From: Streptomyces sp. NBC_00286
GTDB taxonomy: Bacteria > Actinomycetota > Actinomycetes > Streptomycetales > Streptomycetaceae
Direction of reading: 5' to 3'
DNA: 64,000 bases
NCBI RefSeq assembly: GCF_036173125.1
Contig: NZ_CP108054.1
Span: forward strand, 9,493,501-9,557,500
The position numbers and the translations under genes are program-made. The notes beneath the pieces are model-generated. The model saw only the letters and a list, made by a program, of their open reading frames with translations, was not told the origin of the DNA and did no database searches. Of the stretch, positions 5,214-8,369 are shown in pieces (positions within the stretch are counted from its first letter, which is position 1; every line of letters starts with the position of its first letter).

Positions 5214-6164
5214 TCAGTAGGCCATGCCCCCGGCGAACGGCATCGTCTGCCACTGGTCGACGGACGGCTTCAAGTAGTCGAGCAGTACGGGCAATTGTGG
5301 CACCAGCGTGAGGGAGGCGATGACCCGCAGCATCCCCACGGCGTTCACGAAGCTCAGGACGTCCTCGTTCAGCGGCCTCATGCCGTTGCGCCGCGCGCCG
5401 CGGTTGTAGGCGGCTTCGAGGTCGGGCCCGAGGGCGGCCAGGTCCCACTCGACGGGGCCCAGAGTGATCAGTTCGAAGTCGGCGTAGAGGTCCCCGTCCG
5501 TCCCGGAGAAGATGTTCGCGGGCGGGGAGTCGCCGTGGACGGGCTGGAGGTCGATCCCCGGGAACCGTGTCTCGAACGCCGTGCGTGACCGCACGAGAGG
5601 CTCCAGGACCTGCCACTCGCGGCGTGCGCGGTCCAGATCGGCCGGACCGAGGAGGTCGGGGCGCTCCTCGAGCAGAGCGAGGCTTTCCTCGATGAACTGC
5701 GGTTCCGCCGACGACAGATACGACAGCCTGCCCGGGTATGCGCGCATCGCGGCATGCAGGTCGGCGGTGCTTTCCGAGTTCGCCACGTAGTCGGGCTCTT
5801 TGCCCCGGTCCTCCTCGACGAACTGCCAGAAGGTCATCGAGAACCCGTCGCGCTGAACGGGTTCCCGTGGCATGAGAGGGCTGGGAGGGATCACGGGGGT
5901 TCCCTGGTCTGCGAGCCACCGCGTCACGTCCAGTTCCGCCCGCTGGCGGCGCGCAAGGGATTCGAGGCTCGTGGAGCGCGGCAGGACGGTGGGAAGCCTG
6001 GCCACGACGGGTGAGGGCGCGAGGTGGACGACGACGGAGAAGACGTCGTGGAGGACGGAGGCATCTGTCACGGTGAGTCCGAGATCGCGGCCTGCTCCGA
6101 CCGCCGCGTCGACTGCGGCGGAGGTACGGCGGGCGGCCTGCTGTGGGGTCACGAAGTAGGTCAT
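5214..6164 (-). CDS. Aminoglycoside phosphotransferase (APH)-fold kinase
   Basis: 316 aa from ATG 6164. The catalytic loop is VHGDSPPANIF (His210, Asp212, Asn217) and the metal-binding DFG-equivalent is ADFE (Asp229), followed by GPVEWDLAAL. This is the standard APH/choline-kinase pattern. The N-lobe has a beta-rich start ([17 protein letters not shown]). Such enzymes phosphorylate small molecules: antibiotics, choline, homoserine or sugars. Nothing here identifies the substrate, so a resistance role should not be assumed. The ribosome binding site is weak. The gene is downstream of, and co-directional with, the ABC-F gene, but the two are separated by a 370-bp repeat-rich gap. Confidence 0.75.
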   Translation of the reverse strand: MTYFVTPQQAARRTSAAVDAAVGAGRDLGLTVTDASVLHDVFSVVVHLAPSPVVARLPTVLPRSTSLESLARRQRAELDVTRWLADQGTPVIPPSPLMPREPVQRDGFSMTFWQFVEEDRGKEPDYVANSESTADLHAAMRAYPGRLSYLSSAEPQFIEESLALLEERPDLLGPADLDRARREWQVLEPLVRSRTAFETRFPGIDLQPVHGDSPPANIFSGTDGDLYADFELITLGPVEWDLAALGPDLEAAYNRGARRNGMRPLNEDVLSFVNAVGMLRVIASLTLVPQLPVLLDYLKPSVDQWQTMPFAGGMAY

Positions 6165-6224
6165 GGCTCAGTCGTTCCAATCGTTGCAGGTGAATCTCTG
6201 ACGGATGGACGGGGCGAGGGGTAC

Positions 6225-6500
6225 AGAGCCCGCGTGGCGCTTGCGGGCGAGGGGCCAGGCCCCACCGGGCCAGGGCCCGCCGGGGCCAGAGCCCTGGTGC
6301 CGGCGCCCGCGTGTGCAACCCTCGCGCGGCGCTCGCGGGCGGAGGTCGCAGGCCCTACCGGGCCAGAGCCCTGGTGCCGGCGCCCGCGTGTGCGGCCCTC
6401 GCGCGGCGCTCGTGGGCGGATGCGGCCAGGGCCTTGGTCCAGGCCCGCGTGTGCGGCTCTCGCGCGGCGCTCGTGGGCGGAGGCCCACGCCTCCCGCGCC
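6225..6500. repeat. Degenerate tandem repeat array, about 63-77 bp units
   Basis: Between the ABC-F stop and the kinase start is a GC-rich array. The best two units start at 6284 and 6361 (77-bp period). Each contains GGCCAGAGCCCTGGTGCCGG, then CGCCCGCGTGTGC and CTCGCGCGGCGCTCG. A third, shorter and more diverged unit starts near 6424, and weaker traces lie at 6225-6283. The frames that stay open across it are Arg/Ala/Pro-rich by-products of the composition and are not called genes. Confidence 0.75.
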
Positions 6501-6534
6501 AGGGCACTTGCCCTCGGCCCGGCAGGGTCAGCAG

Positions 6535-8181
6535 TCAGCATCTGCGGCCGCCGCACAGCTCCAGTCGCTGTCCCGGGAACCGCTCGCGGAAGCCGCGGTC
6601 GTGCGAGACCGCGACCACCGCGCCCGGGTACTCCGCGAGTGCCGCCTCCAGGTCCTCGACCAGATCGAGCGCGATGTGGTTCGTCGGTTCGTCGAGTACG
6701 AGCAGGTCCGCGGGCCGCGTCACCAGGCTCGCGATCTGCAGCCGCCGCTGCTGCCCCGCCGACAGCGCCGCGACCGGGACGTGCAGGTCCTCCTCACGGA
6801 ACAGGCCCAGCGTCAGCAGCTGTTCGGCATACTCCTCTGACAGCCCGGGCCGCCCGTCCGCGAAGGCGGCGAGCAGCGGGAGCCGCGTCGAGCGCGCGGG
6901 CAGCTCCTGCGCCAGGTACCCGACCCGCGCGCAGCGGCGTACCGTGCCCGCGTCCGGCTCCAGGTCGCCCGCCAGGACGCGCAACAGCGTCGTCTTGCCC
7001 GCCCCGTTCTCGCCAGTGACCAGCAGCCGTTGCCCGGGCGCGATCGTCAACGGCCCGTCCAGACGCAGCCGTTCACCGACCGCTATGCCGTCGAACTCGA
7101 CGAGCGGGCTGTCGGCGGGACGCTCTCCGTCCGCCGCCGTCAGCGCCGCCGTGAACCGCAGCGGTTCCGGCGGCGCCGCCACCGGGTTGCGTCGCAGGTG
7201 GGCCAGCCGCTCCCGGACCGCCCGCACCTGCCCGCCGAGCTTCGCCTGGTGCGAGCGGCGGTGCTTGCCGAAGCCCTGCCGCGGGTCCTTGCCGGTGGTG
7301 GCCAGCCGCCTCCCGGCGGCCTCGAGCAACTCCTCGGTACGGGCCACCTCCTCGAGCCAGTCCGCGTACTCCTGTTCCGCACGGCGCCGGGCGGCGGCCT
7401 TCGCGGCGCGGTAGCCGGCCCAGCCGTTGCCGTACCGGTGCACTGTGCGCGTATCGCGGTCGACCTCGAGGATCGTGGTGGCGATGCGTTCCAGGAAGCC
7501 GCGGTCGTGGGTGACCGCGACAACGGTCCCGCGGTGCGCGCGCAGATGCTCCTCCAGCCAGTGAACCGCCGCTGCGTCGAGGTGGTTCGTGGGCTCGTCG
7601 AGGAGCAGCAGTTCGGGGGCGGCGGCCAGTACGCAGGCGAGCGCGAGCCGCGACTGTTCGCCGCCGGAGAGCGAGCCGAGCAGGCGGTCGCGGGTGATCC
7701 CGGCGAGCCCGAGCCCGTGCAGGGCGGCGTCGACGCGGGCATCCGCCTCGTATCCACCGCGTTCCTCGTACGCGGTCAACAGCTCGCCGTACGCGGCTAG
7801 TTCGTCCTCCGACGCCTCGCCGAGGTGTTCCTCCGCCGTGCGCAGCCGGCGTTCCATGCCGCGCAGTTCGGTGAGGGCGAGGTCGACGGCGTCCTGCACG
7901 GTGCAGCCCGGGTCGAGGTCGAGGGTCTGGGCGAGGTGGCCGGTGCCGCCGGGGAAACTGCCGGTGATCTCCCCGGCGTCCGGCACCTCTGCTCCGGCCA
8001 GCAGCCGCAGCAGAGTGGACTTGCCGGAGCCGTTCTCGCCGATGACGGCGGCCTTCTCGCCTGGGCGGACGGTGAAGGAGACCTGGTCGAGGATGGTCCG
8101 GGTGCCGTACGACTTGGTGACGTCCTTGACGGACAGCTGTGCCACGGGGGCGGGCACAGCGGTATGGGCGCGTTCGCGCAT
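6535..8181 (-). CDS. ABC-F ATP-binding protein, likely antibiotic resistance (ribosomal protection)
   Basis: 548 aa with two ABC domains and no membrane segments. Domain 1 has Walker A GENGSGKST, signature SLSGGEQSR and Walker [13 protein letters not shown]. Domain 2 has GENGAGKTT, ALSAGQQRR and LLVLDEPTNH. The linker between them is charged and helical (YADWLEEVARTEELLEAAGRR), as in ABC-F proteins that reach into the ribosomal exit-site tRNA region. The length and layout resemble the Streptomyces macrolide/lincosamide group (TlrC, CarA types). Which drug it protects against cannot be told. A possible inducible leader lies upstream (8185-8284). The ribosome binding site GGGAAAG at 8186-8192 is only moderate and can be sequestered by the leader RNA. 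Confidence 0.85.
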   Translation of the reverse strand: MRERAHTAVPAPVAQLSVKDVTKSYGTRTILDQVSFTVRPGEKAAVIGENGSGKSTLLRLLAGAEVPDAGEITGSFPGGTGHLAQTLDLDPGCTVQDAVDLALTELRGMERRLRTAEEHLGEASEDELAAYGELLTAYEERGGYEADARVDAALHGLGLAGITRDRLLGSLSGGEQSRLALACVLAAAPELLLLDEPTNHLDAAAVHWLEEHLRAHRGTVVAVTHDRGFLERIATTILEVDRDTRTVHRYGNGWAGYRAAKAAARRRAEQEYADWLEEVARTEELLEAAGRRLATTGKDPRQGFGKHRRSHQAKLGGQVRAVRERLAHLRRNPVAAPPEPLRFTAALTAADGERPADSPLVEFDGIAVGERLRLDGPLTIAPGQRLLVTGENGAGKTTLLRVLAGDLEPDAGTVRRCARVGYLAQELPARSTRLPLLAAFADGRPGLSEEYAEQLLTLGLFREEDLHVPVAALSAGQQRRLQIASLVTRPADLLVLDEPTNHIALDLVEDLEAALAEYPGAVVAVSHDRGFRERFPGQRLELCGGRRC

Positions 8182-8184
8182 GTC

Positions 8185-8284
8185 ACTTTCCCTGAGGATG
8201 CGAGATGTCTACGGGGCAACAGAAACGGCGCTGTTGGCCGTGCCCGGACTCAGAGAAAGTAGAAGAAAGCCATGACCTCACCAT
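8185..8284 (-). promoter_or_regulatory. Candidate translational attenuator of the ABC-F gene
   Basis: In the transcript, ACUUUCUC (complement of 8253-8260, the last sense codons of the leader ORF) can form eight consecutive pairs, one of them G-U, with GGGAAAGU (complement of 8185-8192), which contains the ABC-F ribosome binding site. Between them lies a second possible stem, CAACAG with CUGUUG, around an 8-base loop (8217-8236). A ribosome stalled on the leader would free the ribosome binding site. This is a structural inference from base pairing only. Confidence 0.5.
8250..8273 (-). CDS. Putative 7-aa leader peptide MAFFYFL
   Basis: ATG at 8273 is followed by GCT TTC TTC TAC TTT CTC TGA, ending 68 bases before the ABC-F start. 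A GGUGAGG sequence just upstream (8277-8283) can serve as a ribosome binding site. Short hydrophobic or aromatic leader peptides ahead of ABC-F, erm and similar resistance genes are known to stall ribosomes when the drug is bound. Here the aromatic run FFYF and the overlap with the anti-ribosome-binding-site strand support that role. There is no independent evidence of translation. Confidence 0.5.
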   Translation of the reverse strand: MAFFYFL

Positions 8285-8369
8285 AACAAGACGGCACGTC
8301 TCGTTCCACCTCGCGTGCGTCGCGAAGTCCGTGACCTATGCCACCCGCCCAGGGGAGGGTGGCTGTCCC

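Follow-up and report, generated by a model that had tools for sequence, protein, structure and literature searches.

Leader peptides that control ribosome-protection ABC-F genes have been described in several organisms. For MsrDL (MYLIFM-UAA), the leader of the streptococcal macrolide-resistance ABC-F gene msrD, erythromycin is reported to block the release factors at the stop codon, the penultimate Phe clashing with them, and inducibility drops when UAA is replaced by UGA; the same paper mentions Leu or Ile as the third residue of macrolide-resistance pentapeptides (PMC10314930). Amongst the Streptomyces ABC-F genes, attenuators are reported for lmrC, tiaA and are5sc, all of them ARE5 (PMC8546547, PMC12421871). 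ARE4 proteins such as TlrC are linked to macrolides and streptogramin B (PMC10201436). In S. lividans, 17% of the transcripts are described as leaderless, including trpL, leuL and ilvL, and the mean distance from the TAnnnT box to the transcription start is given as 6.3 nt (PMC8079986).

The locus presented here lies in the window, which is the whole 64 kb stretch of DNA that was analysed. As claimed in the initial annotation, a short frame coding for MAFFYFL is found just 5' of an ABC-F gene, at 8273-8250 on the minus strand. Its letters are ATG GCT TTC TTC TAC TTT CTC TGA, and it lies 68 nt upstream of the ABC-F ATG (8181). The features of the locus are the following:

8339..8363, minus strand: hairpin 3' of the upstream permease gene, a possible terminator separating the units
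8289..8301, minus strand: inverted repeat AGACG-TGC-CGTCT in the promoter spacer, a possible repressor site
8280..8285, minus strand: -10 box TATGGT, separated from the leader ATG by 6 nt, with a predicted transcription start at A8273
8250..8273, minus strand: leader ORF MAFFYFL (ATG 8273-8271, stop TGA 8252-8250), with no clear Shine-Dalgarno (SD) sequence and probably at the mRNA 5' end
8249..8261, minus strand: 5' arm of the leader-SD pairing, the anti-SD UACUUUCUCUGAG, made of codons 5-7, the stop and one base (from the MFE fold and compensatory changes)
8212..8246, minus strand: central hairpin just 3' of the leader stop, with a T-rich stretch at 8225-8218, a possible weak terminator or spacer
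8184..8196, minus strand: 3' arm CUCAGGGAAAGUG, containing the ABC-F SD AGGGAAAG (8193-8186)
6535..8181, minus strand: ABC-F ATPase of 548 aa, nearest to the TlrC/CarA/OleB/SrmB family
5214..6164, minus strand: APH-type phosphotransferase (PF01636, 33.4 bits, cut-off 23.2)

Mini-ORFs of 6-11 aa with a TANNNT box 6-7 nt upstream occur only twice on both strands of the 64 kb, MAFFYFL being one of the two. No Rfam family reached its gathering score in the window. The best NCBIfam model for the ABC-F protein is NF000171 (TlrC/CarA/OleB/SrmB), with 710.9 bits; as this is below the cut-off of 800, the protein is named TlrC/CarA-like here rather than filed as a member. The cut-off of NF000355 (ribosomal protection-like ABC-F) is reached, with 405.6 bits for a cut-off of 380. 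A paralogue from the same genome (L002), which is 58% identical, passes NF000171 at 856.5.

For comparison, the best 80 of 143 confirmed ABC-F loci were taken from a protein scan of named genomes (67-90% identical). An aromatic-rich, TGA-ended leader of 6-11 residues was found in 79 of the 80 loci and in the window, using a rule without a promoter condition; choosing the leaders with promoter, residue and TGA conditions returned the same 80 leaders. A stricter leader pattern caught 73 of 80, and six of the remaining seven were read separately. In the one exception (L043), the ABC-F match begins at residue 22, and what lies upstream looks like a portion of a different gene. The "80 sequences" referred to below are thus the 79 loci and the window, with L043 left out; the relatives are not mutually independent. 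The leader peptides are MAFLFFV (26), MAFFYFL (6), MRHYFFL (6), MGSYYFFR (4), VTFYFFL (3, with a GTG start) and 28 others. When promoter spacing was the only condition, with any residues and any stop allowed, 79 of the 80 sequences yielded exactly one mini-ORF each, and the remaining one (L033) yielded two. All 79 single mini-ORFs end in TGA with Phe at position stop-2, and the pair in L033 includes its MAFLFFV leader. In the up to 1500 bases retrieved per locus, none of the 80 loci shows the sugar-transport permease gene that lies upstream of the leader in the window, so that leader and ABC-F gene stay together without this neighbour.

The combination is also present in loci of Micromonospora, Spongiactinospora, Nocardiopsis and Kitasatospora. 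Within the genus, the short-type covariance model R1 matched 33 of 295 genomes, the genome studied here included, with one match each. Of the 30 R1 loci returned, 27 are directly followed by an ABC-F match of at least 400 aa; in two others with good R1 scores (L102 and L120), the following match covers only the first 134 and 178 ABC-F residues, respectively. At a further locus (L130, in genome G049), the ABC-F gene is a decayed remnant, still preceded on its 5' side by a damaged but recognisable attenuator. Two ABC-F copies, L043 and L141, match only from residue 22, abut another gene and have no leader; for L141, this absence is read from its genome (G039), which is outside the 33 with an R1 match. 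The leader is not a trait of all ABC-Fs of the wider family: amongst 40 distant relatives (20 at 56-61%, 15 at 42-46% and 5 at 54-58% identity), 37 upstream stretches have no such mini-ORF under the rule used. One of the remaining three (L179) has a comparable leaderless-type mini-ORF, MGSL, and the other two matches do not look comparable (VPHSS before L178 and a 15-residue ORF before L197). Leaderless-type mini-ORFs were also seen upstream of two ABC-F-like genes of the same genome, L002 (MGSL*, 1363-1377) and L003 (MAILLAH*, at about 1435). The MGSL of L002 was considered as the same attenuator and rejected: the predicted full fold does not pair this leader with the SD, and L002 is therefore not claimed.

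Regarding the genes downstream, an APH homologue lies within 200 nt of the ABC-F stop in 18 of the 80 loci. The phosphotransferase gene of the window is possibly the second gene of the ABC-F unit, which would bring a second resistance-type function under the same attenuator. In the window, the gap between the two genes (~6165-6530) is about 370 nt long, compared with less than 200 nt in the 18 loci with the gene, and it is repetitive-looking, with repeated peptides in its frames.

A TANNNT box precedes the leader start codon in all 80 sequences, at a spacing of 6 nt in 59 and of 7 nt in 21, and SD-like 4-mers are found 5' of the leader start in only 4 of 80. A leaderless gene would have no SD and a -10 box at a distance of 5-7 nt from its start codon. 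The leaders conform to this (80/80 at 6 or 7 nt), although the absence of an SD is a weak test here, since the SD of the ABC-F gene itself (AGGGAAAG, placed by position and conservation) is weak, with an exact AAGGAGG 4-mer in front of the ABC-F start in just 12 of 80. A strict sigma-70 scan found no promoter at the leader. Considering the constant spacing together with the rule described for S. lividans, the mRNA most likely starts at the leader AUG, which probably places its 5' end at A8273, the leader's own start codon. The initial annotation had held that the lack of a transcription start upstream of 8284 would refute its proposal. This limit was misplaced, as a transcript beginning at the predicted position 8273, downstream of 8284, would still include the entire leader.

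The inverted repeat of the promoter spacer (AGACG-NNN-CGTCT, with up to 2 substitutions) is found in 50 of 55 short-type loci, and also upstream of the paralogue L002. A search for GACGNNNCGTCTTG as the common repressor site of a regulon gave 7 matches in the same genome and 8 for the reversed-pattern control; as the former do not exceed the latter, no regulon is claimed. Several long-type loci amongst L067-L089 are without the repeat and have an A-rich stretch (e.g. GGAAAATCCC) some 30 nt 5' of the -10 box. We take this stretch to be reminiscent of WblC/WhiB7 promoters. Further upstream, the hairpin at 8363-8339 is the first of two in a 48-nt stretch which as a whole folds at -19.4 kcal/mol; it may end the upstream transcript, and the terminator scan did not report it.

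The last leader codons had been said to pair with the ribosome binding site of the ABC-F gene over eight bases. The pairing turned out to be longer, with 10 contiguous pairs (CUUUCUCUGA:UCAGGGAAAG, one of them G-U) and 13 pairs in the predicted fold (8261-8249 with 8196-8184). In a fold that begins at the leader AUG, pairing between the leader and the SD core has a probability of 1.0; the SD core pairing probability is 0.47 when the fold begins after the leader stop. When a ribosome stalled on the last codon is mimicked, which leaves the RNA free only from 12 nt after the stop onwards, the latter probability is 0.48. The proposal that the leader sequesters and frees the ABC-F site thus stands for the sequestering, which is predicted and conserved, and for the freeing in silico, as a fall from 1.0 to 0.48 when the leader is occupied. 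The fold of the whole region is not unusual (z = -0.94, with 34 of 200 shuffles equally good), and for this reason the case is not built on folding energy. When the leader was recoded according to the codon usage of the ABC-F genes with the peptide fixed, an equally strong duplex with the SD region was obtained in 1.13% of 20,000 recodings (-15.7 kcal/mol in the window, compared with a mean of -9.8 kcal/mol across the recodings), and the SD core was this fully paired in 6 of 400 synonymous recodings. The mean SD pairing of synonymous leaders in the window is still 0.755, because a Phe-rich peptide by itself yields much pyrimidine.

Amongst the 80 sequences, the SD core is paired at 0.8 or above in 70 when the leader is present (57 of 57 for the short type), and in 68 with the leader ORF itself as the partner. 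The same RNAs without the leader ORF reach this value in only 5 of 80, and the stalled-ribosome mimics in 3 of 80. As the pairing drops when the leader is removed, the sequestration of the SD depends on the leader. The same threshold was reached in 12 of 33 usable sequences (of 40) from the distant ABC-F relatives, which are largely without such a leader, and in 3 of 16 ORFs from the window. No set of permuted partners in 5000 was as strong overall as the leaders' own duplexes with their SDs, and 1 in 5000 was when permuting within groups. In the synonymous-codon test (p<=0.05), the threshold was passed by 17/22, 4/5, 8/32 and 4/21 leaders in the four groups, two of which thus pass only weakly. 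On the sequences compared, the decisive support is comparative, with the leader and its promoter spacing in 79 of 80 loci and pairing of at least 0.8 in 70 of 80 sequences.

Comparison of the predicted folds showed that the SD core is held by two different parts of the leader. With a pair probability threshold of 0.5, its partner is the last codons and the stop in 31 sequences (the end register, to which the window belongs), codons 1-4 in 42 (the start register), and neither in 7, all of which are of the long type. The pairing in the MAFLFFV group is between AUGGCUUUCC and GGAAAGYC; where CAU follows, it extends to the base before the ABC-F ATG. The registers are accompanied by a particular choice of codons. 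At position -2, 22 of the 31 end-register leaders and 4 of the 42 start-register leaders have TTT, and GCT is used in all 34 leaders of the start register which have Ala as the second residue. This link is partly circular, the register being itself a prediction from these bases, and both groups and registers were assigned from the same sequences that were tested. Both codons are otherwise uncommon: in the ABC-F genes 2.6% of the Ala codons are GCT and 3% of the Phe codons are TTT, whereas the leaders have GCT for 35 of 39 Ala and TTT for 27 of 206 Phe (26 of the 27 at stop-2). The unusual codons are those which complete the SD pairing in the two registers.

When placed on the protein tree, sequences of the end register fall into the long-leader clade and the MRHYFFL groups; those of the start register fall into the MAFLFFV and VTF groups as well as scattered others. 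This suggests that the anti-SD moved from the end to the start register, the number and the direction of the moves being tentative because the tree has many weak forks and a midpoint root. The initial annotation had proposed to look in relatives for compensatory changes on both strands of the stem, and such changes are seen in both registers. In the end register, A-U is replaced by U-A in 5 of 22 sequences (5 unpaired), and U-A by C-G in one (L016; 4 unpaired); amongst the sister rows, L037 has A-U, L053 and L064 have U-A, and L041 is unpaired. In the start register, the first base of the leader and its partner form A-U in 25 and G-C in 5 (the five GTG-start leaders) of 56 sequences, and are unpaired in 26. 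Six pairs of this register show double changes, compared with 2.9 in shuffles (4 of 500 reach six), and its covariation score of 0.142 exceeds the 0.116 of the shuffles (0 of 500 as high) and that of all versions with the partners slid. For the end register, 85.6% of the cells are paired, more than in any slid version, and doubly changed cells number 6, a count that 0 of 500 shuffles reach. Only 2 of its pairs show double changes, however, compared with 1.2 in shuffles (117 of 500 reach this number), and its covariation score is exceeded when the partners are slid by -1 or -2; 8 of the 13 pairs in this alignment never vary. The covariation seen in these alignments is good but not overwhelming. 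A single consensus structure for all sequences was tried and rejected: RNAalifold on 56 sequences yields the central hairpin only and no leader-SD helix, which is expected when two registers are mixed in one alignment.

The peptide is constrained as well. All 80 leaders have Phe at position stop-2, encoded by TTT in 26 and by TTC in 54, and all 80 end with UGA (TGA). The last residue (-1) is Leu, Val or Arg in 78 of them, and positions -3, -4 and -5 are taken by Phe, Tyr, His or Leu in 79, 80 and 78 of the 80, respectively. As read from the aligned leaders, these residues form a signature at the level of the peptide.

While the leader, the spacing, the predicted pairing, the compensation and the conservation come from the sequence itself, we infer from them a transcription start, translation of the leader, a stall, a drug and induction. 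The best reading, which we consider likely, is that of a translational attenuator with a leaderless leader, whose ribosome would be arrested near termination, probably in a drug-dependent manner. Transcription would begin at the leader's own AUG, and the 7-codon aromatic peptide ending in Phe-X-UGA would be translated without a Shine-Dalgarno sequence. In the uninduced state, the ribosome would read the seven codons fast and leave, the leader would pair again with the SD, and little ABC-F protein would be translated. Under induction, a ribosome arrested by a drug binding to the tunnel or the PTC would hold the anti-SD strand and leave the ABC-F SD free. Since ARE4 proteins of the TlrC type concern macrolides and streptogramin B, the likeliest inducer by analogy would be a macrolide, with the arrest perhaps occurring at termination as for MsrDL. 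A wider proposal, which we put at rather less than an even chance, is that of a leaderless drug-sensing family, in which Phe-X-UGA would be kept fixed for release-factor arrest and the anti-SD would have jumped from the last codons to codons 1-4 (over the leader start codon), probably repeatedly, with the sequestration maintained.

The conserved hairpin with a T-rich tail after the leader means that transcription attenuation may act instead of, or in addition to, the control of translation. The hairpin would end transcription early except when blocked by a ribosome stalled close to the stop of the leader, and a ribosome halted at the end of the leader would indeed reach into this structure. 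The consensus hairpin (9 pairs) is nearly invariant in the 56 sequences used for RNAalifold, and a terminator-like match is found at 8241-8225; msrD, vmlR and lmrC are moreover described as transcriptionally regulated (PMC10314930; PMC8546547; PMC12421871). However, this single site has a 5-pair stem and a short T-rich tail, where 0.3 (sd 0.6) matches are expected, and the long type has a different, longer sequence in place of the central hairpin region. Transcription attenuation also leaves the double changes in the leader-SD pairs and the codon choice unexplained, and we regard it, alone or added, as possible but on the unlikely side.

The leader could also be translated without sensing any drug, the leaderless mini-ORF loading ribosomes and thereby coupling or tuning the basal translation of the ABC-F gene. 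A leaderless start and SD sequestration alone would suffice for this, but they do not account for the constraint on the peptide beyond the pairing (Phe at stop-2 in all leaders via both codons, preceded by F, Y, H or L) or for the fact that the following gene belongs to a ribosome-protection family, which makes this explanation improbable. Less probable still is an amino-acid attenuator that stalls for want of charged Phe or Tyr tRNA. While the leader is short and rich in aromatic residues, and leaderless trpL and leuL leaders are reported for S. lividans (PMC8079986), the number of Phe varies from 1 to 4 (a single one in 6 of 80) and that of Tyr from 0 to 3 (none in 32 of 80). A constant run of Phe or Tyr codons before a gene of that amino acid's pathway is accordingly not what is seen, and the following gene codes for an ABC-F protein, not for biosynthesis or a tRNA ligase. 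A chance mini-ORF with chance complementarity, for which one could cite the ordinary fold of the whole region, can practically be dismissed in view of the synonymous recoding, permuted partners, leader removal and control genes, the leader at a fixed promoter spacing in 79 of 80 loci and the finding of just one such mini-ORF in each of 79 of the 80 sequences.

Taking the translational attenuator as the preferred reading, the sort of control is a known one, from which the present locus would differ by a probable leaderless start, the use of coding bases as the anti-SD, and the presence of two registers. The leader peptides MAFFYFL, MAFLFFV, MRHYFFL, MRFFYFL and MTFYFFL were absent from, and no description of the leader family was met in, the full-text literature searched, whose scope did not extend to supplements, preprints and most subscription journals. 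The pentapeptides of macrolide resistance (E- and K-peptides) are a possible likeness to the leader peptide; their sequences were not found for comparison in the literature searched. The ermC attenuator has a longer leader and works as a multi-segment switch. At the present locus, a probably leaderless ORF of 7 codons carries the anti-SD within its own coding sequence. As in ermC, a short ORF is found upstream of a resistance-type gene (79 of 80 loci and the window), and the SD is closed with the leader free and open with the leader occupied, in silico (70/80 compared with 3/80); the opening of a hidden SD by a stall on the leader is what is described for ErmCL (PMC10219788).

Like MsrDL, the leader is short and hydrophobic with Phe directly before the last residue (80/80). 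MsrDL has a UAA stop and controls a Rho-independent terminator; the present leader has UGA (80/80) and a probable leaderless start, and is itself predicted to pair with the SD of the gene. This parallel is one of position only, and it is not favoured by UGA, which lowers the inducibility of MsrDL. Short conserved leaders also precede the ARE-ABCF genes cplR, vmlR, vmlR2 and lsaA; these have 3-4 residues (MR[I/M], MIN, MK[L/Q] and MAGN), and the SD of cplR is held in a terminator hairpin (PMC10201436). The leaders of trpL, leuL and ilvL of S. lividans resemble the present one in being peptide ORFs at the mRNA 5' end, although they are reported to sense amino acids and to act on biosynthesis or tRNA-ligase genes (PMC8079986).

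The attenuators of tiaA, are5sc and lmrC share the leader-dependent control of Streptomyces ABC-Fs, which for tiaA appears to be translational (PMC12421871, PMC8546547). The leaders of tiaA and are5sc are given there as MVGDDDISG and MLV, in 5'UTRs of 194 and 232 bp, for ARE5 proteins and LSAP drugs. The present locus has a TlrC/CarA-like ABC-F, another peptide and probably no untranslated leader sequence. If the preferred reading is correct, an attenuator for TlrC/CarA-like, macrolide-type ABC-Fs, present in 33 of 295 genomes of the genus, would be added to those known for ARE5, with a drug sensor whose leader needs no Shine-Dalgarno sequence. The leader family would further offer a natural series in which the peptide and the RNA pairing constrain the same codons.
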